Assembly (NCBI GenBank): GCA_014058405.1
Contig: CP047423.1
Span: 2,108,001-2,172,000 of the forward strand
Direction: 5' to 3'
Origin: Candidatus Nitrospira kreftii
GTDB taxonomy: Bacteria > Nitrospirota > Nitrospiria > Nitrospirales > Nitrospiraceae
DNA length: 64,000 bases
Below are positions 8,515-62,990 of this stretch, piece after piece (the first letter of the stretch is position 1; every line of letters begins with the position of its first letter). The position numbers and the translations under genes were made by a program. The notes under the pieces are model-generated. The model had not been told where the DNA came from, made no database searches, and was given only the letters and a program-made list of their open reading frames with translations.

Positions 8515-8796
8515 TCAGTCCTTCATCTTTTCTGACAACTCTTTAGCCTTCCCTTTCCCTCGTTCGACCGCCCCCTTTACATTGCCTTTCGCCCTTTCCA
8601 TTTCCGCTTTGACATCGTTGCCCTTGACTTCTTCCTTCAACGCCTTCAACTCCCCTTTTGTCTCCTCTGCGGCTCCCTTCATCTCACCTTTGGCTTTTTC
8701 CACCTGCGCCGTACCCTCCCCTGCTCCACTCTCGATTGCCAGTCCCAGCACAGTCGCCATAACTAAAAATGCTCCTATCAATAGTCCGATCATCAT
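8515..8796 (-). CDS. membrane-anchored amphipathic Lys/Glu-rich protein (CsbD/LEA-like composition)
   Basis: 93 residues: one N-terminal transmembrane helix (MMIGLLIGAFLVMATVLGLAI), then an 11-residue-type repeat of KGE/KGEMKGAAEE units to the end, highly charged and probably a long helix. Such Gly/Lys/Glu repeats resemble LEA-type and CsbD-type stress proteins, but no family signature is complete. AGGAGGG precedes the start. A CTAGG-N7-CCAG site lies 83 nt upstream. Confidence 0.6.
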   Translation of the reverse strand: MMIGLLIGAFLVMATVLGLAIESGAGEGTAQVEKAKGEMKGAAEETKGELKALKEEVKGNDVKAEMERAKGNVKGAVERGKGKAKELSEKMKD

Positions 8797-8879
8797 GCCC
8801 TCCTATTTTATTTTGGTTGATGGATTCTGGTTCACGACTTGACTATGCATATGCTAGCTAGATAGGCGCGCCCTGCGTC

Positions 8880-8895
8880 CTGGCTGAATCCCTAG
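8880..8895 (-). promoter_or_regulatory. CTAGG-N7-CCAG motif upstream of the 8515-8796 gene
   Basis: CTAG at 8892-8895 and CCAG (minus) at 8880-8883, spacer 8 nt. It lies in the 385-nt divergent region 8797-9181, which contains no gene, facing away from a second, weaker copy at 8988. Confidence 0.6.
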
Positions 8896-8987
8896 TTACG
8901 ACACCGGCATTCACCAGAAACTCCTCACAACGACATTGATCAACTGCGTCTGTGGGGCAACCGCGACTTCCTGTTGCCACGAGAGAA

Positions 8988-9003
8988 CTAGGGCTTTTCC
9001 GGG
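8988..9003 (+). promoter_or_regulatory. weak CTAGG-N7-CGGG motif upstream of the YqjD-like operon
   Basis: CTAG at 8988-8991, spacer starting GG, then CGGGT where other sites have CCAGT. Same orientation rule (CTAG distal to the gene); 178 nt before the 9182 start. Weaker than most copies. Confidence 0.4.
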
Positions 9004-9181
9004 TATGCCGAATCCAGAAATTCGGTACACTCGAACCAGTGTCGGTCATCGATTCATACATCACAGCTAGTGGCGTTTCTTGTGTACACGAGGGGATGGA
9101 TGGAACAGAGGATTCTGGTCGACATGGACAGACACGGTGGGACGGTCAACTTCAATTAATTATTCTTAATGGAGGTACGCA

Positions 9182-9586
9182 ATGAATCGGACAGAAGCAC
9201 TCGAAAAGACCGGTGAGCAGGTGGCGCGAAAGACGGAAGATCTTGCCCAAAGAGCTGGTGAGAAGAGTCGTGAGATGGCGGATACCCTGGGAGATAAGGC
9301 ACAAAGGGCGAGCGAAAAGGCCCGTGACGTAGCGGAGAATGTAGGGGACAGGATTGCTGGTGCGTCGGACGTGATTCAAGGAAAGTTGCGGGAAACCAGC
9401 AAGGAGGTCGGTGAAGTCGTCAGTGCGGTTTCAGACAAGGTTCGCTCATCCGCTCAGTACCTTGAAGAGTCGAGTGTGCAAGAGGTGGTAGAGGATGTCA
9501 CAACACTTATCAAACGATATCCGATCCATGCGGTCATCATCGGTGCGGGGATTGGGTTCCTTCTCGCGCGAGGCCGTTCACGGTAG
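9182..9586 (+). CDS. YqjD/ElaB-like membrane-anchored protein
   Basis: 134 residues. A long charged helical region with repeated Lys/Glu/Ala units (residues 5-95) ends in a C-terminal membrane anchor with the signature IGAGIGFLLARGRSR, as in YqjD/ElaB (DUF883) proteins. In E. coli these are inner-membrane proteins that associate with ribosomes in stationary phase. GGAGG lies 8 nt upstream of the ATG. First gene of a three-gene operon with the YqjE-like and 10021 genes. Confidence 0.75.
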   Translation: MNRTEALEKTGEQVARKTEDLAQRAGEKSREMADTLGDKAQRASEKARDVAENVGDRIAGASDVIQGKLRETSKEVGEVVSAVSDKVRSSAQYLEESSVQEVVEDVTTLIKRYPIHAVIIGAGIGFLLARGRSR

Positions 9587-9592
9587 AGGGGC

Positions 9593-10057
9593 ATGATTAT
9601 GGACTCCATAGGGAACGAAAAACAGGGTCCGCAAGCAGCACGAGCCGATACCCCACGAGCCGATACCCCTGGGGTGCTGAGTCTTCTGCAAGGGATCATC
9701 GAAGACATACAGACTCTGGCCTCTCAACAGGTCCGACTAGCCAAGCATGAACTCCAGTTTGAAGGTGCCCGTGCGGCCAGTATGATTGTCGCGGCTATTT
9801 TTGCCGTCATACTGGCCGCACTTTGCATGATGTTGCTGTTCATAGCGTCTGTTGCCGCACTTCATGAGGTCGCTGGATTACCGATATGGATGAGCTGCTG
9901 CATCATGGCCTTTGTTGTTCTTGTCGTGACCATTAGCCTCTTTGTTTATCTCAAGCAGCAGGCGCAACGTTTGCGCCTGTTGCCTTTCCGCTCATTCCAG
10001 ACGGTGAAGGAGGACATTCGATGGATAAAGGAATGGATCACATCGCCCAGGATGTGA
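9593..10057 (+). CDS. YqjE-like / phage holin family membrane protein
   Basis: 154 residues. An N-terminal soluble segment (LLQGIIEDIQTLASQQVRLAKHE) precedes two transmembrane helices (about 60-85 and 95-118), the layout of YqjE and the actinobacterial holin-X family. It starts 7 nt after the YqjD-like gene and its last 37 nt overlap the next gene, so the three are co-transcribed. The YqjD-YqjE pairing is the usual one in proteobacteria, which supports the call. The function of the family is unknown. Confidence 0.75.
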   Translation: MIMDSIGNEKQGPQAARADTPRADTPGVLSLLQGIIEDIQTLASQQVRLAKHELQFEGARAASMIVAAIFAVILAALCMMLLFIASVAALHEVAGLPIWMSCCIMAFVVLVVTISLFVYLKQQAQRLRLLPFRSFQTVKEDIRWIKEWITSPRM

Positions 10058-10704
10058 AGGACATTGTTCAAACACGGACTGCTATCGCGGATAAATTGGA
10101 TAAGCTCGAGCACCGCTTCACCTCTACAGTTGAGGAAGCCAAGATGATGGCCGAAGACTTCGCCGATCGGGCGCAAGCTGTGGTGGAAGATACGGTCGAG
10201 TCTGTAAAGGAAGTGACGGATCCATCTCGTCTGGCTTCCAACTATCCCTGGCTCATGGTGAGTGGCGCTATCATGACGGGCTTTGCCGTGGGACGCCTTA
10301 TCGCGCAAGAGCAAACCCGCGTGATCCCCTATTATCCTCCTGGATCTCATGCCGCTGACGTGATGCCTGAATCGGCTTCGGAACCTACGATGAAAGAAGG
10401 TGTCTATCCATTCTATCCACAATCATCGGTGGATGAGTCCTCCACATCCACGTCATCGACTTCTTCACCGACATCCTCGATCTTGACGTATCTAGGCCCG
10501 TTGATCGCCGAGGCACTGGAGCAAGTGAGAGGCGATCTGGTGGAGATTGGCAAATCTACCCTGCGAACTTGGCTTAAAGAGGCGGTACAAGGAGGACGTA
10601 CAGGGTCCTCAGCCTCTACAGGATCATCTCCCAGCAGGAATCATGACCACCAGGCCACCGCACGCGATACAGACTACCAGCCTCATACACAGACGGTTGG
10701 TTGA
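10021..10704 (+). CDS. YqjD/DUF3618-like protein with Ser/Thr-rich region
   Basis: 227 residues. The N-terminal 80 residues form an amphipathic helix (LDKLEHRFTSTVEEAKMMAE, then TVESVKEVTDPSRLASN) followed by a membrane segment YPWLMVSGAIMTGFAVGRLI, as in DUF3618/YqjD proteins. A low-complexity Ser/Thr tract (about 137-158) and a second amphipathic helix follow, then a His/Gln/Ser tail. AAGGAGG is 6 nt upstream, inside the preceding gene, with which it overlaps by 37 nt. The extended C-terminus is unusual for the family. Confidence 0.65.
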   Translation: MDKGMDHIAQDVKDIVQTRTAIADKLDKLEHRFTSTVEEAKMMAEDFADRAQAVVEDTVESVKEVTDPSRLASNYPWLMVSGAIMTGFAVGRLIAQEQTRVIPYYPPGSHAADVMPESASEPTMKEGVYPFYPQSSVDESSTSTSSTSSPTSSILTYLGPLIAEALEQVRGDLVEIGKSTLRTWLKEAVQGGRTGSSASTGSSPSRNHDHQATARDTDYQPHTQTVG

Positions 10705-10834
10705 TGCTGAAGGGATAGAAGCGATCTGCAGGGGAAGGATAATACTGTCGCGTGTGTGCTGCGGGTTATGTACTGGTTGTTCTATATGTCCCTGCAGTAG
10801 GTGTTAGCTATGTCACGCGCATGCTGTGTCAAGC

Positions 10835-11566
10835 ATGAATCGTCCATTCGACCACCATCAGACGAAGGCAATACGCGCCCACCCCATCGTACTTGGAACC
10901 TTGACCATCGTGACGCTCGCTGGCACGTTTCTCATTGATACAGGATTGTCTGACGGAGCGGCGGCATGGGCTCCCTACTGCATCGCCATTGTTCTGGCCC
11001 TGCAGTGGAAAGGAGCCGCTGCCATCGCGCCCGTGACAATTTCAGCGTTAATCCTCCTGGTCGCAGGATTCTTGCTGGAGCCGCCTGGAGATCTGCAGAG
11101 TGAGACCACCAATCGTGCTATTGGTGCAGCGACCTTGACCGTCTTGGCCCTCGTTTGCCTGTACATCGACTCGCGGCGATCCAAACACCGAAAAACATTC
11201 ACCGCAACCATCTCACGAATGACCCAGCTACAGCTTTTTGTCGATGGCTTAAAAAAAGCGGCGATTGCACTGACCGACCTGCGAGGGCGGGTCACTGAAT
11301 GGAACCAGGCGGCACAGAAACTAACCGGGCATCCAATTGAACAGGTAATCGGACAACCAGTTTTCCGCGTCTTCTTGAGCCTTGAAACCAGAACCGGTGG
11401 TTGGTCAAAGACCTACCGGAGCGCCCGTATGGAGGGTGCTGCAATCCATAAGACTGTGTACCACCAACAAGACGGGTCTCTCACATATGTCAATATTATG
11501 GTGAGGCCGCTTCGGAATAAAGTCGGGCGGCTTCACGGATATGCCCTTACTCTTCATGGTCAATAA
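10835..11566 (+). CDS. membrane protein with C-terminal PAS domain
   Basis: About 243 residues. Four hydrophobic segments lie in the first 110 residues (MASE/DUF4118-like sensor layout), followed by a linker and one PAS domain (DLRGRVTEWNQAAQKLTGHP to YVNIMVRPLRNKVGRLHGYA). No kinase, cyclase or receiver domain follows, so it can sense but has no visible output; it may be a truncated sensor kinase or act through a partner. The start is uncertain (GTG at 10826 is also possible) and no good ribosome site is visible. Confidence 0.6.
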   Translation: MNRPFDHHQTKAIRAHPIVLGTLTIVTLAGTFLIDTGLSDGAAAWAPYCIAIVLALQWKGAAAIAPVTISALILLVAGFLLEPPGDLQSETTNRAIGAATLTVLALVCLYIDSRRSKHRKTFTATISRMTQLQLFVDGLKKAAIALTDLRGRVTEWNQAAQKLTGHPIEQVIGQPVFRVFLSLETRTGGWSKTYRSARMEGAAIHKTVYHQQDGSLTYVNIMVRPLRNKVGRLHGYALTLHGQ

Positions 11567-11597
11567 TCTCACCCCGTTAAGGGTCCCTTGCCAGGAG

Positions 11598-11830
11598 TCA
11601 ATGGGCGACAGGTTGGTCGGTCAGGAACGAGATCGCGTGACCCGCAGCATCAACCTTCGCTTCCACTGAATCTCCTGGTTTAGGCGGAACGTTGGACTGG
11701 TGCCGTCACCATCAGCCCGCACGATATCGCCTTTCATTGTTGTGCCGGGTTTCAATAGGCCAACAAAGTCCCTCACCATACTCGAGTACGAGTATCTCGG
11801 CGTTCAGATGGATCTCGATCCTGTGTCCGT
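11598..11830 (-). pseudogene. frameshifted remnant of a family A periplasmic protein
   Basis: No single frame is long, but three frames read in turn on the minus strand resemble family A: GHRIEIHLNAEI, then VGLLKPGTTMKGDIVRADGD, then PKPGDSVEAKVDAAGHAISF followed by LTD and a stop at 11598. The last piece matches the end of the 25264 protein (GDNVIVKYDEKSKHAISFLTD) and the middle matches its GKTMNGKVVEVD segment. At least two frameshifts are needed. It begins right at the stop codon of the 11833 gene. Confidence 0.55.
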
Positions 11831-11832
11831 GC

Positions 11833-12270
11833 TCATGGCTTCCGCTTGAGGTTCTTGCCCTGCCGGCGATCATCCGGGCGATCGAGCGTGTCGTTTGCCT
11901 CCTTGAGGCTCAACTGTTCGTCGGATGGAGCGGATTGGCTTTCCTTGGTCTGTTGTTCGTTTGTTTTTCGCTTTTGGCCGGACTGGTTTTTGGCATCCGG
12001 CCTGTGCTTCATGGATGTATCCGGCTTCTTCTTGGGAGTGCTCATTTCCGTTGTGGAGCGGTCAACAGATGCGTCTTCATCATGATCGCGGGTGTCCACC
12101 AATCTGATGACTGCGGCGTCAGAACATAATTGATGATCCACAGCCATTAGCGAGCTGGTCAATGGCCTGGCTTCAGCAAAGGGCGAAAGGCCAAACACTG
12201 CAACCATGAGACCTACGAACACTGAGCTTGGTATTACCTTCCTTGTAACCGGCGAATTGATTCTTCCCAT
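11833..12270 (-). CDS. secreted protein of unknown function, hydrophilic C-terminus
   Basis: 145 residues from the ATG at 12270, with AAGGGAGGG about 8 nt upstream; the frame extends to 12465 but crosses the CTAG motif, which argues for the internal start. A signal peptide ends at PFAEA. The mature part is almost entirely hydrophilic (TPKKKPDTSMKHRPDAKN; DRPDDRRQGKNLKRKP) and is probably disordered. No family recognised. Its stop codon abuts the family A remnant. Confidence 0.5.
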   Translation of the reverse strand: MGRINSPVTRKVIPSSVFVGLMVAVFGLSPFAEARPLTSSLMAVDHQLCSDAAVIRLVDTRDHDEDASVDRSTTEMSTPKKKPDTSMKHRPDAKNQSGQKRKTNEQQTKESQSAPSDEQLSLKEANDTLDRPDDRRQGKNLKRKP

Positions 12271-12403
12271 ACCATTTCCCTCCCTTTTCTTCTTAATACG
12301 TAATTGTTTCATGGATCGATGAATCAACGCATCGAGTGATATGTTAGGCATCTTCCCAGTACTGATACTCCATAAATTACGTCCAATTACACATCCAAGA
12401 AAC

Positions 12404-12419
12404 CTGGCATTACCCCTAG
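12404..12419 (-). promoter_or_regulatory. CTAGG-N7-CCAG motif upstream of the 11833-12270 gene
   Basis: CTAG at 12416-12419 and CCAG (minus) at 12404-12407. It is 133 nt from the chosen start. It is one of two oppositely oriented copies in the 380-nt gene-free region 12271-12650. Confidence 0.6.
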
Positions 12420-12436
12420 CTATTGCTGAACATTTT

Positions 12437-12471
12437 CCCACCCACATGACCGATCCCACCCACATGACCGA
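12437..12471. repeat. two direct 17-bp repeats next to the CTAG motif
   Basis: CCCACCCACATGACCGA occurs at 12437-12453 and again, identically, at 12455-12471, one base apart (18-bp period). The pair sits between the two divergent CTAG motifs, ending 9 nt before the one at 12481. Could be a tandem activator site or a recent duplication. Confidence 0.8.
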
Positions 12472-12480
12472 CTCGATACC

Positions 12481-12496
12481 CTAGGGGTTGTGCCGG
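12481..12496 (+). promoter_or_regulatory. CTAGG-N7-CCGG motif upstream of the 12651 gene
   Basis: CTAG at 12481-12484, spacer GGGTTGTG, CCGGT at 12493-12497. The spacer is identical to that at 51335-51350. 154 nt before the 12651 start. Confidence 0.55.
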
Positions 12497-12650
12497 TAGC
12501 ATGTCAGGACAATTGTGATTTACTCATTTGTGATTTCCTCATTGCCGTTGCATTCACGGAGCGGGTTGAAGGCGAAAAAAAGAGTGAACTGCTGAACTTT
12601 TAACGTCGAAACCAAACATTGATAAAGAGCACCGACCCAGGCGGAACGTT

Positions 12651-12947
12651 ATGCCATCACAAGACATCTCTCGGGACATGAAGAATATGAAGATCGCCGG
12701 CTGCGATGTGCAGTTGCTGTTCGTGAACTCCGACGGCGATTGGACCGTCGTGGGGACGTTAGCGAGCGGGATTGCGGAAAATAAGAAGCAAGAAACTATT
12801 ACGAGCGGCCCGTGGGCCACGCGAGATCTCGCCGAACAAAAGGCATTGGAGCAGATCACACTGCTTTTGGGCCATAACGAAGATCGCAGTACCTCGCGCG
12901 TGCATAATCCTGGGGAATCGACGACGGACGAGCAGTCCGTCGAATGA
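12651..12947 (+). CDS. hypothetical small protein
   Basis: 98 residues, no signal peptide. The core VQLLFVNSDGDWTVVGTLAS, then ETITSGPWATRDLAEQKALE, suggests a small alpha/beta domain; the tail is hydrophilic. The next gene (13019) has a similar layout: a beta-rich core, then a Thr/Ser-Arg-Lys-Glu-Ala helix beginning 'SRKEAESAALDVAKRIVDSL'. The two may be distant relatives. Only a weak ribosome site (GGCGGA) is visible. Not a family I recognise. Confidence 0.5.
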   Translation: MPSQDISRDMKNMKIAGCDVQLLFVNSDGDWTVVGTLASGIAENKKQETITSGPWATRDLAEQKALEQITLLLGHNEDRSTSRVHNPGESTTDEQSVE

Positions 12948-14057: not shown

Positions 14058-15425
14058 ATGCTAATTCCAAGCCCTAGGGGTCCTACGAGGTTTGGCGTGA
14101 TGGGCGGCGGGCTATACTGGTTCGACACCGATTGGAAGTTTCAGTGGGCGCCTTGCTCTATTTTATCCATGGCCGATGAGTTCAGGGCAACGGCTGGTTG
14201 GTTGTATGAGGCGATTATCGACATCACGGAACACAAGCTGGCGGAGCAAACCTTGATTTGGTCAGCGGAGGAACTTGAGCGCCAAGTCGCCGAGCGGACG
14301 GCGCTGTTGAGCCGTTCCCAAGAGCGATTGCGGGCGCTCTTGCACCAGCTCACGCGCACCGAGCATCAGGAACGGCGGCGTATCGCCGTTGAATTGCACG
14401 ACTACCTTGCACAACTCCTCGTTGCGGCACACTTGAAAATGGCACAGGACACACGACCGACGAAAACCGAACAAGACCGAACCGTGGTACAGGATCTGGA
14501 ACGGATCCTGGACGAGGCCCTCACCTATATACGCTCGCTGGTCGCCAAGCTGAGTCCTCCTGTGTTGTACCATCTCGGACTCCCTGCTGCAGTGCAATGG
14601 CTAGCCGAGCAGATGGAAGAGCATCAGCTGATCGTCGAGACGGCGCTCGACCTTCCTCCCGATCTCACGAAGTTGCCGGATGACGTGGCCGCCATCCTTT
14701 TTCAGTCTGTGCGAGAACTGCTCTTCAATGTCGTCAAACATGCCGGCCTCCCCCACGTCCGCATCGCGTTACATACGACCGCGGATCAGAATCTTGTGAT
14801 CGTAGTCACCGACCAAGGCCGAGGATTTGAGGTCGATCAATTGGATCAGGCGTCCATTTCTGCGACCTCCTTCGGTCTATTCAGCATCAAAGAACGAATG
14901 GAGGCTCTCGGTGGGTCCGTGCAGATCATGAGTCGCGTCGGCCAAGGCACGTCGGTGACGTTAGTGTGTCCGTTGACATCCCCGAAGCGGGCCGGATCGT
15001 TCCCAGTGATCGTCGGTGCGCATAAGGGAATACTCAGGGTACCGCACTCGGTGCCGTCAAGCTCGATTCGGATCCTGTTGGCCGATGATCACGCCATGGT
15101 CCGCCAGGGGATTCGGGCGCTGCTTGACCGACACGACGACTTACTCGTAGTGGGCGAAGCATGGGATGGACGGCATGCCTGCGAGCTTGCGGGGGCCCTC
15201 AATCCCGATGTCATCGTCATGGATGCCAATATGCCACACCTCGATGGGATCGAAGCCACTCGTCGCATCAAGCACGACTACCCTCACATAGTGATCATCG
15301 GATTGTCCGTGCAATCCGCGGCTCAAGTTGCGAATAGCATGCTCCAGGCCGGCGCCAGCCGCTATTTGACAAAAGAGTCGGCGGGAGATCAGCTGTACGA
15401 GACGATCATGGCCGCAGTGGTTTAA
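14058..15425 (+). CDS. hybrid sensor kinase: truncated PAS, HisKA_3, HATPase_c, receiver
   Basis: Up to 455 residues. The start is uncertain (ATG at 14058, 14100 or 14169). The first 60 residues look like the end of a PAS/PAC domain (YEAIIDITEHKLAEQTL). A coiled coil leads to a HisKA_3 dimerisation domain with the phosphoacceptor motif ELHDYLAQLL, then HATPase_c with N-box SVRELLFNVVKHAG and glycine boxes, then a NarL-type receiver (LLADDH, phosphoacceptor VMDANMP) from about 335. There is no DNA-binding HTH, so output needs a separate regulator. No membrane segment: a soluble kinase. Its H-box is nearly identical to that of the 21040 protein. Confidence 0.85.
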   Translation: MLIPSPRGPTRFGVMGGGLYWFDTDWKFQWAPCSILSMADEFRATAGWLYEAIIDITEHKLAEQTLIWSAEELERQVAERTALLSRSQERLRALLHQLTRTEHQERRRIAVELHDYLAQLLVAAHLKMAQDTRPTKTEQDRTVVQDLERILDEALTYIRSLVAKLSPPVLYHLGLPAAVQWLAEQMEEHQLIVETALDLPPDLTKLPDDVAAILFQSVRELLFNVVKHAGLPHVRIALHTTADQNLVIVVTDQGRGFEVDQLDQASISATSFGLFSIKERMEALGGSVQIMSRVGQGTSVTLVCPLTSPKRAGSFPVIVGAHKGILRVPHSVPSSSIRILLADDHAMVRQGIRALLDRHDDLLVVGEAWDGRHACELAGALNPDVIVMDANMPHLDGIEATRRIKHDYPHIVIIGLSVQSAAQVANSMLQAGASRYLTKESAGDQLYETIMAAVV

Positions 15426-21022: not shown

Positions 21023-21039
21023 AGCAATAGGTGTGCCCG

Positions 21040-22746
21040 ATGCCTCCTCCAGCCGACAATGCAGCGATGACTCCACTCAAAATACTCATCGTCGAGGATC
21101 GCGAAACCGATACGGAACTCATTGTTCGCGAACTCAAAAAGCACGGTTTCGCTCCCTCGTGGATACGCGTCGACACTGAAGAAGATTTCCTTCGTCAGAT
21201 TCACACACCGTTAGACTTGATCTCCGTCGACGCCATCATGCCGCAGTTCAGTGCGCACCGCGTCCTCATGTTGCTTCAAGAGCACCAACTCGATACCCCC
21301 TGCATCGTCATCTCCGGCTCCATCGGGGAAGAAGAAGCCGTCTCACTCATCCGCGCCGGTGCGTCCGATTATCTGATGAAAGATCGTCTTGGACGACTCG
21401 GACAATCCATCCGTCAGGTACTGGATCAGCACCGACTGCGCAGGGAACATACGCGGGCCCATAACGCCCTGATTACATTGAATCAGGAACTGGAGCGGCG
21501 CATTGCAGAACGCACCGCTCGGCTGGAGGAGCTCAATCACGATCTGGCTGAGGAACTTCTGGAGCGCAAGCAGATCGAACAGCAGCTACGGGAGCATGAA
21601 ACCGCCCTGGAACGACGAGTGGCGGCGCGGACGGTACAACTCGAAAGATCGTACGCCCGACTACGGCGCCTGGCGAGCGCATTGACGTTGGCTGAACAGC
21701 GAGAGCGTAAGAACCTGGCCTCCGAGCTGCACGATTATCTCGCTCAATTATTGGTCGTGTCGAAATTTAAGATCGCCCAGCTCCGTCGCAATCCCTCTGA
21801 TAATAATGTTCGGTCACTGTTGCAGGAGGTGGATTCCTCGCTTGATCAGGCGTTGACCTATAGTAGAACCCTCATCGCTCACCTGAGTCCAACCGTTCTC
21901 TTCATCCAGGGACTCGTTGCCGCCCTTCACTGGCTGCCGGAATATTTCTCTAAGCAAGGCCTTTGCGTTCAGGTGAAGTCCCACGTCTCTACTGTAACAC
22001 TCTCCGAAGATCGTTCGATTTTACTGTTTCAATCGGTGCGAGAGCTGTTGTTTAATGCGCTGAAGCACGCCGGTACTGGTGAGGCCACCGTTGAGATACA
22101 CGTTATTGATAAACGAGTCTTGCGCATCACCGTGGCGGATGACGGAACAGGTTTCGATGGGGAAATGTTAAACGGAGACACGAAAGGGTTCGGGTTGCTC
22201 AGCATTAGAGAACGAATCGAAGGGTTGGACGGCGCCTTTTCCGTGCTCTCTTCGCCGGGAGCCGGCACGCGGATTGAGTTGTCCATTCCCTTAACTGACG
22301 TTGCCGGACCACCGGAACGGTCGAGTAAGGGACAGGAAACCGAGGGTCGGTCGATCGAACCATGTCGCGTCTTGATCGTAGACGATCATCAGTTGTTACG
22401 ACAGGAATTGACCAGGCTCTTAAATGCCATGAACGGCATTATGGTAGTTGGTGAGGCATCGAATGGAAAAGAGGCAATAGAATTGGCGGCCTCCCTTTCC
22501 CCGGATGCTATTATGATGGACATCAATATGCCGGCCCTCGATGGAATCGAGGCTACACGACAGATTCTTGCTCACAATCCAGACGTGAAGGTCATCGGGA
22601 TCACAGTCCACGCCGATCAAGATATTCATATGCGTATGATGGCCGCGGGAGCAGTGGCTTCCTTGTCTAAGGATACGCTCGCGCAAGATCTTCAGCCGAC
22701 CATATGTCGAATTCTTGATCTTCAAGACATGTTGGCATCTTCGTGA
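21040..22746 (+). CDS. hybrid kinase: receiver, HisKA_3, HATPase_c, receiver
   Basis: 568 residues from the ATG at 21040 (AGGTG 6 nt upstream; GTG at 21031 possible). An N-terminal receiver (VEDRETDTEL; phosphoacceptor in SVDAIMP) is followed by a long coiled coil with repeated ERR-x-AERTAxLE units, then HisKA_3 (ELHDYLAQLLVVSKFK), HATPase_c (SVRELLFNALKHAG; GFGLLSIRERIEGLDG) and a C-terminal NarL-type receiver (VDDHQLLRQE; MMDINMPALDGIEATR) without HTH. The first receiver probably takes phosphate from the CHASE3 kinase or its partner, making a relay within the operon. Paralogue of the 14058 protein. Confidence 0.88.
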   Translation: MPPPADNAAMTPLKILIVEDRETDTELIVRELKKHGFAPSWIRVDTEEDFLRQIHTPLDLISVDAIMPQFSAHRVLMLLQEHQLDTPCIVISGSIGEEEAVSLIRAGASDYLMKDRLGRLGQSIRQVLDQHRLRREHTRAHNALITLNQELERRIAERTARLEELNHDLAEELLERKQIEQQLREHETALERRVAARTVQLERSYARLRRLASALTLAEQRERKNLASELHDYLAQLLVVSKFKIAQLRRNPSDNNVRSLLQEVDSSLDQALTYSRTLIAHLSPTVLFIQGLVAALHWLPEYFSKQGLCVQVKSHVSTVTLSEDRSILLFQSVRELLFNALKHAGTGEATVEIHVIDKRVLRITVADDGTGFDGEMLNGDTKGFGLLSIRERIEGLDGAFSVLSSPGAGTRIELSIPLTDVAGPPERSSKGQETEGRSIEPCRVLIVDDHQLLRQELTRLLNAMNGIMVVGEASNGKEAIELAASLSPDAIMMDINMPALDGIEATRQILAHNPDVKVIGITVHADQDIHMRMMAAGAVASLSKDTLAQDLQPTICRILDLQDMLASS

Positions 22747-23076: not shown

Positions 23077-23439
23077 CTATTTTGTACGCGAGCGCCCTTG
23101 GACATCGTGTCGCTCGAACCACTCGTCCACCCATTTCTTCACTTCCTCTTCCTTGTCTCCATACCGTTCTTGAATCTTACCTTCCAGCTTGTCTGTACGG
23201 CCTTCGATGTACAACAGGTCGTCATCCGTGAGGTCCGCCCACTTCTTCTTCAGCTCGCCCTTAAACTGTTTCCAGTTTCCCTTCAGCTGATCATCATTGA
23301 CGACCGGCACCACGTGAGCACTCCCTTGCTCATTCATTGCCGATCCCCAGACCGGCGCAGTAACCGCGAAGGATTGAGTCCCGATGAGGGTACCTCCGGC
23401 GACAACAAGAGTTGCGACTAGTTTTCGATAGATGTTCAT
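23077..23439 (-). CDS. CsbD family protein with signal peptide
   Basis: 120 residues from the ATG at 23439 (GGAGTGAG upstream). A signal peptide ends at SFAVTA, then a linker and a CsbD domain: QLKGNWKQFKGELKKKWADL, TDDDLLYIEGRTDKLEGKIQ, ERYGDKEEEVKKWVDEWFER. CsbD proteins are small sigma-B-type general stress proteins; the standard form is cytoplasmic and about 65 residues, so export of this one is unusual. Paralogue of the 23610 gene. Confidence 0.8.
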   Translation of the reverse strand: MNIYRKLVATLVVAGGTLIGTQSFAVTAPVWGSAMNEQGSAHVVPVVNDDQLKGNWKQFKGELKKKWADLTDDDLLYIEGRTDKLEGKIQERYGDKEEEVKKWVDEWFERHDVQGRSRTK

Positions 23440-23609: not shown

Positions 23610-23837
23610 CTATTTGCGCGTTGGTGATCCTGCTTCGTCGACCTGCTTCTCATACCAGTCGTTCGTCCATTTCATGACGTCTTCTTTCTTGTCACCATAT
23701 CGCTCTTGCACACGTCCAATGAACTTATCGTAGTTTCCTTCTGCCTCAGTCAGGTCGTCATCCGTGAGCTTGCCCCACTGACGCTTGGCCTCACCTTTGA
23801 ACTGACTCCACTTTCCTTTGAATTGCTCTGCATTCAT
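23610..23837 (-). CDS. CsbD family general stress protein
   Basis: 75 residues, the normal CsbD length: MNAEQFKGKWSQFKGEAKRQ, then WGKLTDDDLTEAEGNYDKFI and VQERYGDKKEDVMKWTNDWY. It is cytoplasmic, hydrophilic and mostly helical. GAGGAGG lies 6 nt upstream of the start. A near-palindromic CTAG motif is 110 nt upstream, overlapping the stop codon of the CBS gene. Family members are induced by general stress; their molecular role is unclear. Confidence 0.88.
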   Translation of the reverse strand: MNAEQFKGKWSQFKGEAKRQWGKLTDDDLTEAEGNYDKFIGRVQERYGDKKEDVMKWTNDWYEKQVDEAGSPTRK

Positions 23838-34391: not shown

Positions 34392-35267
34392 TTATCCTGT
34401 CTTGCGCCGAGATCGGTCGGAGCGTCCACGCGTCCGCTGATGGTTCGATGACATTTGACGTCCCTTGGTCTTATCTTTCACGCTTCGTTTCAGCAAGGCC
34501 ATGAGGTCGACGACTTTCCCTCGTGTTGGCGGCGCCTCGACTGCCTCGCCTTCCGGATCACCGATCATTTCCGTTCGACCCGCTTTGATGCGCTTCTCGA
34601 TCAGCTTCAAGAGATCTTCACGGTACGTATCGTGATAGTCTTTCGGATCCCACTCCCCGGTCATTTCTTCGACAAGTTTAACCGCCATCTCCCGCTCCTT
34701 GGCCGTGACTCCGACCCTTTTGTTCTTCGGTAGGATGTCTAAGTCCTGGGCGTCCCGTACCTCATCGGCGTAGCGAAGCGTATTCATCAGAATCATCTCG
34801 TTGACCGGAAGTAGTGCCGCGACATACTGACGCGTGCTGATGACGACATTTGCAATGCCCACCTTGTGGGTCTGCTTGAGGATGTCCCGCAGCAACACAT
34901 AGCCTTTTTCACCACGCGCCTCAGGCGCCAGATAGTAAGGAGAGTCGAAATACATCGGTGCAATGTCCTCTTCATCGACAAAGCGCAGAATATCGACCGT
35001 CTGGGTAGCCTCGACATTGGCCTGACGGAAATCTTCATCGGTCAGGATGACGTAGCGGTTTTTCTCGTATTCGTACCCCTTCACGATCTGGTCCCACGGA
35101 ACCTCTTCTTCCGTTTCCTTGTTGTATCGCTTGAAACCGATTGGCTTCATGTTGCGACGATCCACCATGGTCAAATCAAAACTATTTCGCTTCTCAGCGG
35201 AATACAGCCCGACGGGAATATGTACCAGTCCGAAGCTGATTGCGCCTTTCCATAGCACACGAGACAT
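34392..35267 (-). CDS. ku: Ku protein for non-homologous end joining
   Basis: 291 residues, the normal bacterial length. It starts MSRVLWKGAISFGLVHIPVG, has the bridge region (VVISTRQYVAALLPV) and a basic, probably disordered C-terminal tail (RTRGRSDRSRRKTG) as in other bacterial Ku. Homodimeric Ku threads onto broken DNA ends and recruits LigD, which is encoded 2.7 kb away on the same strand. The genes are not adjacent: an NtrC-type regulator and a lipoprotein lie between. Confidence 0.95.
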   Translation of the reverse strand: MSRVLWKGAISFGLVHIPVGLYSAEKRNSFDLTMVDRRNMKPIGFKRYNKETEEEVPWDQIVKGYEYEKNRYVILTDEDFRQANVEATQTVDILRFVDEEDIAPMYFDSPYYLAPEARGEKGYVLLRDILKQTHKVGIANVVISTRQYVAALLPVNEMILMNTLRYADEVRDAQDLDILPKNKRVGVTAKEREMAVKLVEEMTGEWDPKDYHDTYREDLLKLIEKRIKAGRTEMIGDPEGEAVEAPPTRGKVVDLMALLKRSVKDKTKGRQMSSNHQRTRGRSDRSRRKTG

Positions 35268-35374: not shown

Positions 35375-36871
35375 TCACTGCATGGGTAATCCTGAAAACG
35401 AATGGTGTATCGAATGCGGAGAACAATGATCTGATTCCTGCGGATTGAAAAGAATTGATGTGGAATCCGTCGGCAACGGAGCAGACAGAATGTCCGGATG
35501 AACATAGGTCGTCCGTGGACCATCGGCAAGCCCGAATTGACGGAGCTTTCGGAGAAGTGTTTTCCGATGGATCCCTAAAATAGTGGCCGAGCGACCAAGA
35601 TCTTGGTCATAGTGTTTCAAGACCCGTAGAATATGCGCTCGTTCCAATTCGGCTAAGGTCACCCATCCTCGCGCCTGTGCGACGGCCTGCTCCGGTGCCG
35701 CTTGCACCACATGCGGGAGATCCTCCGGATTAATGATGGGATGCGGCGTGAGGGCCACAGCTTGTTCGATGGCGTGTTCCAATTCCCGGACATTGCCTGG
35801 CCATGAATAACGTGTGAGCACGCTCATGGCTTCAGCTGAAATGCCCGTGACTCGCTTCCGTTTCGACCCGCCATACCTATGCACAAAATATTGGGCGAGA
35901 AGAGGAATGTCTTCCATGCGCTCACGCAGTGGGGGGATACGAAGCGTAACGACGTTGAGGCGATAATAAAGATCTTCACGGAAACTTCCACCCTGGACGA
36001 GCGAGCTCAGATTTTTTTTCGATGCAGCAATGATACGTACGTCAACCGTCATGGTTGTGGTGCCGCCAACACGCCGGAATTCTCGTTCCTGAATCACACG
36101 AAGCAGCTTGCCCTGCAGGGCCGGAGAGAGATCAGCGACTTCGTCCAGAAAACACGTGCCGAGATGCGCCTTTTCCAGAAGACCTTTCTTCACACCGACG
36201 GCACCGGTAAACGCACCACGTTCGTGCCCAAACAACTCGGACTCAAGCAAGGTTTCCGTCAAGGCCCCCCCGTCGATCGTCACAAACGGTGCGGCATGAC
36301 GCGCACTATTGGCGTGAATGGCTCGGGCAATAAGTTCTTTTCCGGTCCCGCTTTCTCCTTCAAGAAGCACGGTGCTCTCAGTTTGTGCCACTCGCGCAAT
36401 GGACTTATATACGGACACCACAGCCGGACTGCTCCCCACTAATGTCTCCGAGCGGATTGGGTTGCGGAGCTGCTCCTCCGGTTGCACCTTTTCGCGCGAC
36501 AACTGTGAGAGCTGCAGCGCTCGACGAACAATGAGCCTGAGATCATCCAGGATAAACGGTTTACTGATGTAATCAAACGCACCGGCTCGAATCCCATCGA
36601 CCGCCGTCTTGAGGCTGCCGCATGCCGTCATAAGAATGATGGGCATATCGTACCCACGCGAACGCAACTCTCCCAGCAAAGAGAGCCCATCGAGTTCCGG
36701 CATGTTGAGATCTGACATCACGAGGTCCGGGATCTGTCTTGTGACAAGCCCTAATGCGGCCTGCCCGGTGGCGACCGTATCGATTGTGTAACCTTCTTTC
36801 GACAGGACTCCGCGAAGCTGAGCTTGAGTATCGGCATCGTCATCGACGATTAAAATATTAGGATTGCGCAT
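35375..36871 (-). CDS. sigma-54-dependent response regulator (NtrC family)
   Basis: 498 residues: receiver (phosphoacceptor Asp54 in VMSDLNMP), AAA+ domain with Walker A GESGTGKE (about 170), the sigma-54 contact loop ERGAFTGAVG (about 215) intact, and a C-terminal Fis-type HTH (ATILGIHRKTLLRKLRQFG). After the HTH an extra 50-residue tail is unusual. It activates transcription with sigma-54. No cognate kinase gene is adjacent, although several hybrid kinases lie at 14-22.7 kb. Its target promoters are not evident. Confidence 0.92.
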   Translation of the reverse strand: MRNPNILIVDDDADTQAQLRGVLSKEGYTIDTVATGQAALGLVTRQIPDLVMSDLNMPELDGLSLLGELRSRGYDMPIILMTACGSLKTAVDGIRAGAFDYISKPFILDDLRLIVRRALQLSQLSREKVQPEEQLRNPIRSETLVGSSPAVVSVYKSIARVAQTESTVLLEGESGTGKELIARAIHANSARHAAPFVTIDGGALTETLLESELFGHERGAFTGAVGVKKGLLEKAHLGTCFLDEVADLSPALQGKLLRVIQEREFRRVGGTTTMTVDVRIIAASKKNLSSLVQGGSFREDLYYRLNVVTLRIPPLRERMEDIPLLAQYFVHRYGGSKRKRVTGISAEAMSVLTRYSWPGNVRELEHAIEQAVALTPHPIINPEDLPHVVQAAPEQAVAQARGWVTLAELERAHILRVLKHYDQDLGRSATILGIHRKTLLRKLRQFGLADGPRTTYVHPDILSAPLPTDSTSILFNPQESDHCSPHSIHHSFSGLPMQ

Positions 36872-37967: not shown

Positions 37968-40661
37968 TCATGATGGAGGACTTTTTATCCCAATGCATCG
38001 TCTCATGTTCGAGGTGAGGAGTTGGTGCTCCGTAAAATAGTCTTCCCAAGGGTCGCTGGCAAGTTTCGACAATCGCTCCCCGACAGTGCGCATCGTAAAC
38101 TGATCTGAGCGTAGCGACGGAGAGACTTCATCCCACGCAAGGGGAACGGAAACAGGAGCTCCCGGTTTCGCCCGTGTCGAATAGGCTGCAACCGCGGTCG
38201 CGCCCTGGTCGTTACGGAGAAAATCAATATACACTTTTCCCTTCCTCGCGCGCTTGGACATGTTATCGGTAAAACGTGCTGGAATCGTCTGCGTCATATG
38301 CTCGGCCAGCGCCTTTGAGAATTCTTTCACCTCCTCCCAACTATGGTTCCGTCGCAGAGGCACCACCACATGTAACCCTTTCCCACCTGTCGTCTTGACA
38401 AAAGACTTCAGGCTCAATTCATCCAGTAACGTTCTCATCAGAAACGCCGCCTCGATGACGACCTCCCACGCCAAGTCTGGAGCCGGATCCAAGTCAAGAA
38501 TCATGCGGTCTGGTCGATCTAGCCGATTCTGCGTCGCTCCCCAGGTATGAAGTTCGAGCATCCCGAGCTGCGCGAGCGCGACGATTGCTGCGGTCGTGTT
38601 CGCCACCATATAACAGGCGCGCCCCTGGGTCTCCTCCACTTCCACCCGATCAATGGCTTCGTGGATTTGATCCGTCACGTGTTTCTGGTAGAAGCATCCG
38701 CGTGTCTGCCCTTCGGGACAACGAACAATTGTCAACGGTCGTCCTTTTAAATGCGGAAGAATCCACTCCGCCATACTTTCATAGTACTGTGCCACGTCCA
38801 ACTTCGTGATCCCATGATCGGCATACAGAGCGCGATGGGGATGGGTAATCTTAACGCCGGCCACGGCTGTTGAGATGGAGGTTTTGCTTCGCGATGTGCC
38901 GGCACCGCCCATTCGGGAGGAGTTGGATGGTTGTCTGCCGTCAGGCATGGCGGTCACCGTATTCGGGTTCGTCATTCCCGTGGGATGATGGCTCGGAACT
39001 TCGCGTACGATCGTGCGCGCCGGTTTATCGTCTCGCAAGCCGAGGAATGAGGCGTGGCGCAGCAGACCCTCCTGAGTCCATTCGGCGAATTGGATCTCTG
39101 CGACAAGCTTCGGTGTGACCGAATGTACGCCGTGAGCATCTCGTCCTGTCGGCGGATTGATAAACGGAGAACGAGATCGTTCCAATTTTCGAAGCACACG
39201 ATGCAGGTGGGAGAGACGCGCTTCAGAAAAGCCTGTGCCTACTCGGCCGACATATACGAACCGACGGCGGCCTTGTTGGTTCTCATACACACCGAGCAAC
39301 AGCGCGCCAAGTCCACGCCGCGAGCCTGCCGGATCGGTAAAACCGCCGATCACAAACTCCTGACGATGATGACACTTAACTTTCACCCAGTTTTTATTCC
39401 GACCGGCGACGTACCTGCCGTCGGCCAGCTTGGCGACCAGGCCTTCCAGGCCCCGGCGGCAGGCCGTCTCGAAGACAGCGCGGCCTTGACCGGGAACATG
39501 ATCGCTGTACCGAAGTGCGCAGCCGGATCCGGTTAGGAGGGGTGTCAATCGCCGCTTGCGTTCATGCAGCGGCATTGCCCGTAGATCGAGTCCGTCCAAG
39601 AACAACAGATCGAAGACGAAATAGACGAGTTGGCTGTTTCCCGTACCACCAAAAGCGTTTTGCAGCGCTTGAAAACTCATCGTGCCATCTTCGCCGAGCG
39701 CCACGAGTTCACCGTCAAGCCAGGCATTGATTACCTTCAGCTTTGCCGCAGCGCTCGCATGTTCATTCAGCTTCGCCGTCCAGTTACGACCATTTCTGGA
39801 GAACAGTTTGGCCGCACCCTGGTCGATTCGACAGAGCAGCCGATATCCGTCATACTTCACCTCGTGCACCCACTCTTCCCCTTCGGGAACGTCCTCGACC
39901 AACGTGGCGAGCTGTGGCTGTACCCATTTGGGACAGGGAAGTTTTCCAGGTGTACCGCCGACTTCTCTCCGAGGTTTTTGGACGGCAGCAGAGGAAGATG
40001 GCGATGTCCTACGTGACGTACGATCGGGGGTCGCCTGAGGTGTGGCTTGACCGGAATACCATTCTGCCGTTCGAGCCGCCGCGATTTGGTTCATGGCCAT
40101 ACCGCTTTTGACACTTTTTGACAACGCTTGGGTGGTGGCACCGGAGGCTCCGGCACGAGCCTTTCTGTCTCGTCCCTTAATGAGCAACCAGTTTGTCCCA
40201 TCCCTATTCCGCGCACCACCCATTCGAACCAGAGCCCAGCGTCCCTGCAACTTCTGTCCAGCCAGGGTAAATGTGAGATGCCCCTTGTCATAGGCTGCTT
40301 TCGGATCGCCGTCAGGAATCCATTCACCTCGATCCCAGACCATAACCGTGCCGGCACCATACTGCCGGTGGGGAATGATGCCCTCAAAATCGGCATATTC
40401 CATCGGATGATCCTCGACATGCACGGCCAATCGTTTATCGGAAGGATTGAGGCTGGGCCCTTTGGGAACTGCCCAACTTTTCAAGGTCCCGTCAAGTTCT
40501 AATCGAAAGTCATAATGAAGCCGCCTCGCGGCATGTTTCTGAACGACGTAATGTAACGAGGGGCCTGACGACGAGGCGCGCCTTCCCCGTCCCCGTGGTT
40601 CGGTCGTGCGTATAAAGTTCCGCTTCTTCCAGTACCGCTGCAAACTCTCCGACGATTTCAT
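37968..40661 (-). CDS. ligD: three-domain DNA ligase D
   Basis: 897 residues in Pseudomonas order: N-terminal 3'-phosphoesterase (about 25-165; HYDFRLELDG, YGAGTVMVWD), central ATP-dependent ligase (about 250-560; nucleotidyl Lys in HEVKYDGYRL), and C-terminal polymerase/primase of the AEP type (about 615-890; MILDLDPAPDLAWE acidic pair, TTGGKGLHV). Linkers between domains are Ser/Thr/Arg-rich. It repairs double-strand breaks with Ku, trimming, filling and sealing ends. The gene ends about 120 nt after the cupredoxin-like lipoprotein gene. Confidence 0.93.
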   Translation of the reverse strand: MKSSESLQRYWKKRNFIRTTEPRGRGRRASSSGPSLHYVVQKHAARRLHYDFRLELDGTLKSWAVPKGPSLNPSDKRLAVHVEDHPMEYADFEGIIPHRQYGAGTVMVWDRGEWIPDGDPKAAYDKGHLTFTLAGQKLQGRWALVRMGGARNRDGTNWLLIKGRDRKARAGASGATTQALSKSVKSGMAMNQIAAARTAEWYSGQATPQATPDRTSRRTSPSSSAAVQKPRREVGGTPGKLPCPKWVQPQLATLVEDVPEGEEWVHEVKYDGYRLLCRIDQGAAKLFSRNGRNWTAKLNEHASAAAKLKVINAWLDGELVALGEDGTMSFQALQNAFGGTGNSQLVYFVFDLLFLDGLDLRAMPLHERKRRLTPLLTGSGCALRYSDHVPGQGRAVFETACRRGLEGLVAKLADGRYVAGRNKNWVKVKCHHRQEFVIGGFTDPAGSRRGLGALLLGVYENQQGRRRFVYVGRVGTGFSEARLSHLHRVLRKLERSRSPFINPPTGRDAHGVHSVTPKLVAEIQFAEWTQEGLLRHASFLGLRDDKPARTIVREVPSHHPTGMTNPNTVTAMPDGRQPSNSSRMGGAGTSRSKTSISTAVAGVKITHPHRALYADHGITKLDVAQYYESMAEWILPHLKGRPLTIVRCPEGQTRGCFYQKHVTDQIHEAIDRVEVEETQGRACYMVANTTAAIVALAQLGMLELHTWGATQNRLDRPDRMILDLDPAPDLAWEVVIEAAFLMRTLLDELSLKSFVKTTGGKGLHVVVPLRRNHSWEEVKEFSKALAEHMTQTIPARFTDNMSKRARKGKVYIDFLRNDQGATAVAAYSTRAKPGAPVSVPLAWDEVSPSLRSDQFTMRTVGERLSKLASDPWEDYFTEHQLLTSNMRRCIGIKSPPS

Positions 40662-62676: not shown

Positions 62677-62990
62677 CCAACATACACGGCTGTGCCGGTG
62701 TGTAACAGGCTGCCTCATTTTTCCTCTTACCTGAACATCCGATGGCTCGCATTCTCTGTCTGTCTTCATGTTGCAGCTCACCATGATCTCGGTGAAACAA
62801 CTACTGGAGCATTCCCCAGATTTCACCTACCAGAGGTACCTGGGAAACGCGCCAGTTCTCTTTCATCCGGCCCATCTTTATGGTCTGGATGGCGTGTGGA
62901 CACTCAACCGCTTTTCACTCAGATGCGCTCTGCTAAGACCAGCGCTCCATCAACTGAGGGAGCACACATCACAAATAGGGAATCAGCTTC

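Follow-up and report, generated by a model that had tools for sequence, protein, structure and literature searches.

In the 64,000-nucleotide stretch of the Candidatus Nitrospira kreftii chromosome analyzed here (the window; GenBank contig CP047423.1, positions 2,108,001 to 2,172,000), two gaps between divergent genes carry back-to-back copies of a motif with a CTAG half, which raises the question of whether the motif is a directional control element or a symmetric repeat. We find that the copies are very likely promoter elements. They probably serve as operators for a dimer of NarL/FixJ-type response regulators that activates sigma-70-type promoters, and two regulators encoded nearby, RR1 and RR2, are the predicted binders because of their co-occurrence with the motif and their gene neighborhood. 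Genetic study of gene regulation is difficult in Nitrospira, an important nitrifier, and an operator with a candidate regulator pair, candidate kinases, and about fifty candidate promoters makes a testable regulon out of a block of stress-type genes (CsbD, PRC-barrel, and others) that for the most part lack an explanation.

The element is a 16-bp imperfect palindrome, CTAGGG-N6-CNRG, with CYAG as the consensus right half and a broader form of roughly CTRGRR-N4-YYCYAG. When all 77 CTAGs in the window were lined up by eye, many intergenic ones shared CTAGGG-N6-C(C/T)AG at a fixed spacing. A plain enrichment of CTAG was rejected, as the bare tetranucleotide is depleted in the window (77 versus 117 expected). 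The pattern CTAGGGNNTNNTCCAGTNC, with at most three mismatches, has 25 matches in the window versus 4.0 expected, and the highest of 100 shuffles reached 9. Sites were scored with a 19-position matrix, built first from 19 window matches and then refined over 400 kb of the same chromosome. The matrix finds 25 window sites of at least 13 bits versus a mean of 1.2 and a maximum of 6 in 60 shuffles, an in-sample count given that it was seeded in the window; two of the 25 (10616 and 63783) lie inside called genes. With overlapping hits unmerged, the reversed matrix yields more matches than the true one at 7, 8, and 9 bits and fewer at 10 bits (142 versus 178) and 11 bits (82 versus 151). Because of these many reversed matches at lower scores, most counts below are given at 13 bits or more, and cutoffs of 11 and 12 bits were used only in scanning upstream of RR1 and RR2 and in the gap conservation scans.

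Gap A (8797 to 9181) is bounded by the starts of two genes, one at 8796 on the minus strand and the other at 9182 on the plus strand. In gap B (12271 to 12650), the corresponding starts are at 12270 and 12651; these two were chosen by direct reading, and our own gene caller places them later, at 12147 and 12678. The minus-strand copy in gap A (CTAGGGATTCAGCCAG, 8895 to 8880; 16.8 bits over the 19-mer) faces the gene at 8515 to 8796 and is followed on the same strand by the -10 hexamer TAGCAT at 8851 to 8856, at an offset of 39 from the motif start, with a transcription start predicted near 8844 from standard -10 spacing. The plus-strand copy (CTAGGGCTTTTCCGGG, 8988 to 9003) faces the gene at 9182 to 9586 and precedes the hexamer TACACT at 9026 to 9031 (offset 38; predicted start near 9038). 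Its right half, CGGG, departs from the consensus, and by motif score alone the opposite direction is higher (16.2 versus 13.6 bits); we assign it to the plus strand, despite this vote, because of the -10 hexamer and the orthologues. In gap B, the minus-strand copy (CTAGGGGTAATGCCAG, 12419 to 12404; 15.5 bits) faces the gene at 11833 to 12270, with TAATTT at 12374 to 12379 on the minus strand (offset 40; predicted start near 12367), and the plus-strand copy (CTAGGGGTTGTGCCGG, 12481 to 12496; 16.9 bits) faces the gene at 12651 to 12947, with a weak plus-strand hexamer, TTTACT, that lacks the usual TA start, at 12519 to 12524 (offset 38; predicted start near 12531). Three further CTAGs in gap A, at 8854, 8858, and 9067, are not copies of the element. 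The claim in the initial annotation that each divergent gap holds two copies, one facing each gene, is borne out in both cases. None of 2,000 dinucleotide shuffles of either gap contained two sites of at least 13 bits, and a single such site appeared in 12 (gap A) and 6 (gap B), which excludes a chance origin of the paired copies for both gaps.

The copies hold a fixed position relative to a -10 hexamer. Scored with our own -10 weight table across 80 offsets, the hexamer signal peaks on the gene side at offset 39 from the motif start, reaching 2.05 at 46 sites of this genome (own sites; mean over offsets -0.83, standard deviation 0.47) and 1.49 at 114 sites of ten relatives outside the matrix training (related sites; mean -1.20, standard deviation 0.42). 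On the antisense side there is just a slight peak, again at offset 39 (-0.40 at own sites, tied with offset 35, and -0.55 in the relatives). The sense score exceeds the antisense score at 37 of 46 own sites (antisense higher at 9) and 94 of 114 related sites (antisense higher at 19, with one tie). Downstream positions 39, 40, and 44 favor T, A, and T even though the matrix ends at position 18. By standard spacing, the palindrome would cover about -51 to -36, and a poor -35 element would begin with the favored T of position 16. This T is present at 37/46 own and 89/114 related sites, a partly circular figure since the position lies within the matrix, and a full TTG occurs at only 2/46 and 15/114.

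An inverted repeat that adjoins the -35 element at a fixed distance from the -10 is the arrangement of a CrbR-type promoter. For activation, the LuxR-family response regulator CrbR requires an inverted repeat that is likewise imperfect and lies at -52 to -36, directly before an RpoD promoter (PMC5715377). The CrbR/ACTU motif of Pseudomonas and other Gammaproteobacteria shares its geometry with the Nitrospira box and differs in sequence (e.g., TACTACCATCGTCGAAT), in its acetate-use genes, and in a kinase with an SLC5 domain (PMC5715377). CrbR has a handful of confirmed targets, whereas dozens of candidate promoters occur here in one chromosomal stretch.

The direction of the element comes mainly from its flank (the T at -35) and the -10 hexamer. 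The motif had been described as directional rather than as a symmetric repeat; the directional part stands at the level of the promoter, whereas the opposition to symmetry falls, as the 16-bp core is a nearly symmetric, imperfect palindrome whose right half also reads CTAG in half of the own sites (23 of 46) and in 64 of the 114 related ones. Likewise, the placement of the CTAG half away from the gene is seen in all four copies of gaps A and B and is only a trend, and a weak cue, overall: sites with CTAG in the upstream half only outnumber those with it in the downstream half only by 8 to 3 in this genome and 30 to 13 in the relatives, the remainder having it in both or neither. Motif direction can be judged in tandem gene regions, where, at 13 bits or more, the motif by itself is directed at the downstream gene in 20/25 own and 61/72 related sites, and the -10 hexamer alone gives the same counts. 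In divergent gaps with at least two sites, whose directions were called from the motif and the -10 hexamer with no gene information, the sites are arranged outward in 22 of 27 cases (9/10 own and 13/17 in relatives), in the same direction in five, and inward in none. Across all related sites, 102 of 114 point to the next gene, a raw figure that includes divergent gaps, where either direction counts. Another outward pair lies in a divergent gap at 62801 to 62819 and 62840 to 62858, only 20 bp apart, so close that one regulator complex may serve both promoters or the promoters may compete.

Both gaps retain their paired copies in relatives with a recognizable gene pair. The plus-strand protein of gap A has homologues in 8 of 79 congeneric genomes, this one included, and all six genomes that keep the gene pair, again counting this one, carry both copies facing outward by their -10 hexamers. 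The weakest of these hexamers belongs to the minus copy of L149 (score 2.4). There, judged by the motif alone, the right-hand copy favors the inward direction (16.1 versus 15.9 bits), as it does in N. kreftii. The remaining sequence of gap A has diverged in alignment with G091, and in the two genomes with the homologue but without its neighbor, copies are absent from the nearest 600 bases. The plus-strand protein of gap B is likewise present in 8 of 79 congeneric genomes; both copies occur in the three with a recognizable neighbor gene (this genome, G175, and G091), although the neighbor is only 35% and 30% identical in G175 and G091, and the plus copy in G091 has no good -10 hexamer. G173 carries the plus copy only, and four distant homologues have single sites 386 to 588 bases upstream.

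The sites are concentrated in one part of the chromosome. In the 400 kb scanned, sites of at least 15 bits number 52 (46 intergenic) in the 235-kb stretch at 2.095 to 2.330 Mb, whose boundaries were set after the sites were seen, versus 1 (0 intergenic) in the other 165 kb; at 13 bits or more, the counts are 63 (55 intergenic) versus 9 (0 intergenic). By gap type, the latter cutoff places 28 sites of the stretch in divergent gaps, 25 in tandem gaps, and 1 in its 29 convergent gaps. Across the whole 4.13-Mb genome, 16 of 22 matches to CTAGGRNWWNNNCYAGT fall within 2.095 to 2.330 Mb, and CTAGGN7CCAG has 13 of its 35 matches in the 64-kb window, 20 in 2.08 to 2.33 Mb, and 15 elsewhere. This regional concentration of pattern matches rejects an element spread evenly over the genome. 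The backward-pattern control exceeds the true genome count in two pattern searches (83 versus 35 and 52 versus 42); we set these controls aside because backward reading produces GATC-type words, which we assume to be commoner. In the RR2 neighborhoods of the ten relatives (779 kb), the true matrix finds 126 sites at 14 bits or more, 114 of them intergenic, whereas the reversed matrix yields 19 sites, 2 of them intergenic.

The two candidate binders lie at the edge of the 235-kb stretch, about 10 to 11 kb outside the window, as convergent neighbors: RR1 at chromosome positions 2096863 to 2097531 on the plus strand and RR2 at 2097603 to 2098283 on the minus strand. Both match PF00072 and PF00196 above cutoff, giving a receiver domain and a C-terminal GerE helix-turn-helix, and they are the only ones of the genome's 21 GerE proteins inside the stretch. 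The four closest homologues of RR1 (82 to 91% identity) come from Nitrospira assemblies. Among the called proteins of the stretch, only RR1 and RR2 have homologues in all ten related neighborhoods, which were themselves chosen around RR2. We searched for RR2 in 148 genomes of the phylum and in 79 of the genus, and took a match with an E value of at most 1e-68 as presence. Within the genus, the 24 genomes with RR2 have a median of 4.5 motif matches (range 1 to 22, none at zero), and the 55 without it have a median of 1 (range 0 to 16, 22 at zero), a difference with a Mann-Whitney P of 8e-9, or 2e-8 without the N. kreftii genome, uncorrected for relatedness; in these match tallies, perfectly symmetric sites are counted twice. 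Among family members outside the genus, nine genomes with RR2 average 8.0 matches versus 0.9 in nine without it. On the contig of RR2, within about 230 kb, at least two matches occur in 12 of 14 RR2-positive genomes and one in each of the other two. A sense copy stands upstream of RR1 in 12 of 14 genomes at 11 bits or more and in 8 of 14 at 13 bits or more, whereas 16 more distant paralogues, one of which had just 64 bases of upstream DNA, showed none of 11 bits or more. A 14.0-bit site also lies upstream of the gene that precedes RR2, labeled MgtC-like by eye.

RR1 and RR2 match the structurally solved NarL/FixJ regulators VraR, NarL, and DevR across both domains, VraR best (E values of 4e-30 and 8e-28, respectively). 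These regulators belong to other organisms, and their operators differ from the box described here; DevR controls a dormancy regulon. NreC is reportedly also of the NarL/FixJ class, with a HisKA_3-type kinase, and its consensus is said to be TAGGG-N4-CCCTA, which resembles the core here, although that consensus did not turn up in the literature searched. It differs in serving nitrate/oxygen respiration genes, and we know of no chromosomal regulon block for NreC. As the response regulator of the staphylococcal NreBC system, NreC binds a palindromic region rich in GC (PMC8139620). The titles and openings of abstracts searched, which leave subscription journals largely outside, contained no description of the putative Nitrospira regulon, and nothing direct was found on CTAG in Nitrospira or on LuxR-type stress regulons.

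We propose that a response regulator dimer of the NarL/FixJ type, with receiver and GerE domains, would bind the 16-bp palindrome at about -51 to -36 and sit against the degenerate -35 element (T at -35, G or C at -33). With the -10 hexamer TAnnnT 17 bp further on, the bound dimer would recruit RNA polymerase and activate transcription. A divergent gap would then consist of two complete promoters back to back, one per gene. The binder is probably RR1, RR2, or both, and the HisKA_3 kinases of the window would be the likely partners.

Several observations weigh against this proposal. Near offset 39, the -10 score reaches 3.5 or more at just 23/46 own and 72/114 related sites (5 and 17 on the antisense side), and the hexamer is weak at 6 of the 25 window sites. 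RR1 lacks a sense copy at L026 (G145) and L034 (G088), and autoregulation of RR2 through a directly upstream box is unsupported, with a single such box in 14 genomes (11.3 bits). Some RR2-positive genomes have only one to three matches. Conversely, the RR2-negative genomes G175, G155, and G102 (84, 90, and 99% complete) still carry 16, 12, and 6 matches, respectively; they encode regulator paralogues at 40 to 45% identity to RR1. Finally, the survey of binders covered the GerE, Crp, and Sigma70_r2 families, and the stretch encodes members of other DNA-binding families, such as a protein labeled NtrC-like by eye at 35375 to 36871.

Some of these points favor the strongest rival explanation, in which the palindrome is the operator of another DNA-binding protein, encoded within the 235 kb or beyond it, and RR1 and RR2 only happen to lie in the conserved neighborhood. 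The three motif-bearing genomes without RR2 and the restriction of the survey to three families fit such a protein, as do the paralogous NarL/FixJ regulators near matches in RR2-negative genomes (G165 C79, G151 C32, and G160 C19). Yet RR2 presence tracks motif number in two genome sets, and the upstream copy recurs at RR1. The stretch, moreover, encodes neither a Crp nor a Sigma70_r2 protein: the single HTH_Crp_2 match of the genome lies at 2.815 Mb, and none of its 16 Sigma70_r2 matches falls within 2.095 to 2.330 Mb. Crp and sigma factors were accordingly rejected as the binder, and we regard a different binding protein as unlikely, if a serious contender. A variant that keeps RR1 and RR2, which we consider rather improbable, joins them in a heterodimer whose one partner prefers the CTAGGG half and whose second partner prefers CYAGT; the asymmetry of the half-sites would then itself set promoter direction, and the 235 kb would form a general-stress block. 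If true, this heterodimer-run block would serve Nitrospira as RpoS or PhyR-EcfG do elsewhere.

The strict spacing between motif and -10 hexamer and the conserved T at -35, with its partial circularity, would also suit the core promoter of an alternative sigma factor, with CYAGT as the -35 element, TAnnnT as the -10, and no activator. Such a promoter is very doubtful, given that the inverted repeat reaches to about -51, past any -35 element, that the -10 is sigma-70-like, and that no Sigma70_r2 match lies in the stretch. Still less probable is a repressor operator whose palindrome abuts the promoter and blocks polymerase: a repeat extending to the -35 region is compatible with it by geometry alone, but a center near -43.5 and a -35 so poor in TTG fit activated promoters, and CrbR, the parallel case, activates. 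A short repeat that is mobile or selfish and has no regulatory role, although it might cluster in one chromosomal stretch as these copies do, is scarcely credible for copies that hold their spacing to the -10, seldom occur in convergent gaps, and are retained in orthologous gaps even where the surrounding sequence has diverged.

Boxes also occur beside relatives of the two regulators. In the RR2-negative G151 (C32), G165 (C79), and G160 (C19), they lie about 0.5 to 2 kb from a paralogous NarL/FixJ regulator, suggesting that related regulators read similar boxes and that a wider family may do so. Seven genomes (G055, G094, G115, G121, G123, G129, and G141) carry CTAGGA-N-ATC-N-CCTAGT within about 270 bases of the 3' end of a regulator paralogue that is 48 to 53% identical to RR2. 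G173 has two RR2-like genes (89% and 58% identity), on contigs C52 and C1, and each contig has motif matches.

Two kinases in the window are candidate partners of the regulators: a plus-strand HisKA_3 histidine kinase with a receiver domain (14058 to 15425) and a plus-strand hybrid kinase with two receiver domains plus HisKA_3 and ATPase domains (21031 to 22746). HisKA_3 kinases usually serve NarL/FixJ regulators, and each of the two has a homologue in 9 of the 10 related neighborhoods, which links their genes to the regulators and the putative regulon. The kinase at 14058 to 15425 has several full-length homologues in many related neighborhoods, with five each in G115 and G147.

The genes facing the copies in gaps A and B encode small proteins. 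The gene at 8515 to 8796 (minus strand) encodes 93 amino acids labeled CsbD-like by eye, with no Pfam hit, and the one at 9182 to 9586 (plus strand) encodes a 134-amino-acid helical protein labeled YtxH-like by eye, which Pfam does not confirm; its sole Pfam match is Apolipoprotein, at 25.5 bits against a cutoff of 90. The next gene, at 9593 to 10057, matches Phage_holin_3_6 (PF07332). In gap B, the minus-strand gene at 11833 to 12270, whose start was picked within a longer open reading frame (11833 to 12465), and the plus-strand gene at 12651 to 12947 encode proteins of 145 and 98 amino acids with no Pfam hit. Among the 18 window proteins scanned, Pfam identified CsbD at 23080 to 23439 and 23613 to 23837, as well as DUF1328, PRC-barrel, OMP_b-brl, Phage_holin_3_6, DUF748, and DUF1207. 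Other products of the stretch we take, by eye, to be hemerythrin-like, MgtC-like, and YihY-like proteins, Ku, an ATP-dependent ligase, and a universal stress protein. Judged from these family and by-eye labels, the putative regulon looks like an envelope/stress and DNA repair program. The genes at 34392 to 35267 and 37968 to 40661 resemble, from their first residues, an end-joining pair of a Ku-like protein and an ATP-dependent DNA ligase-like protein.

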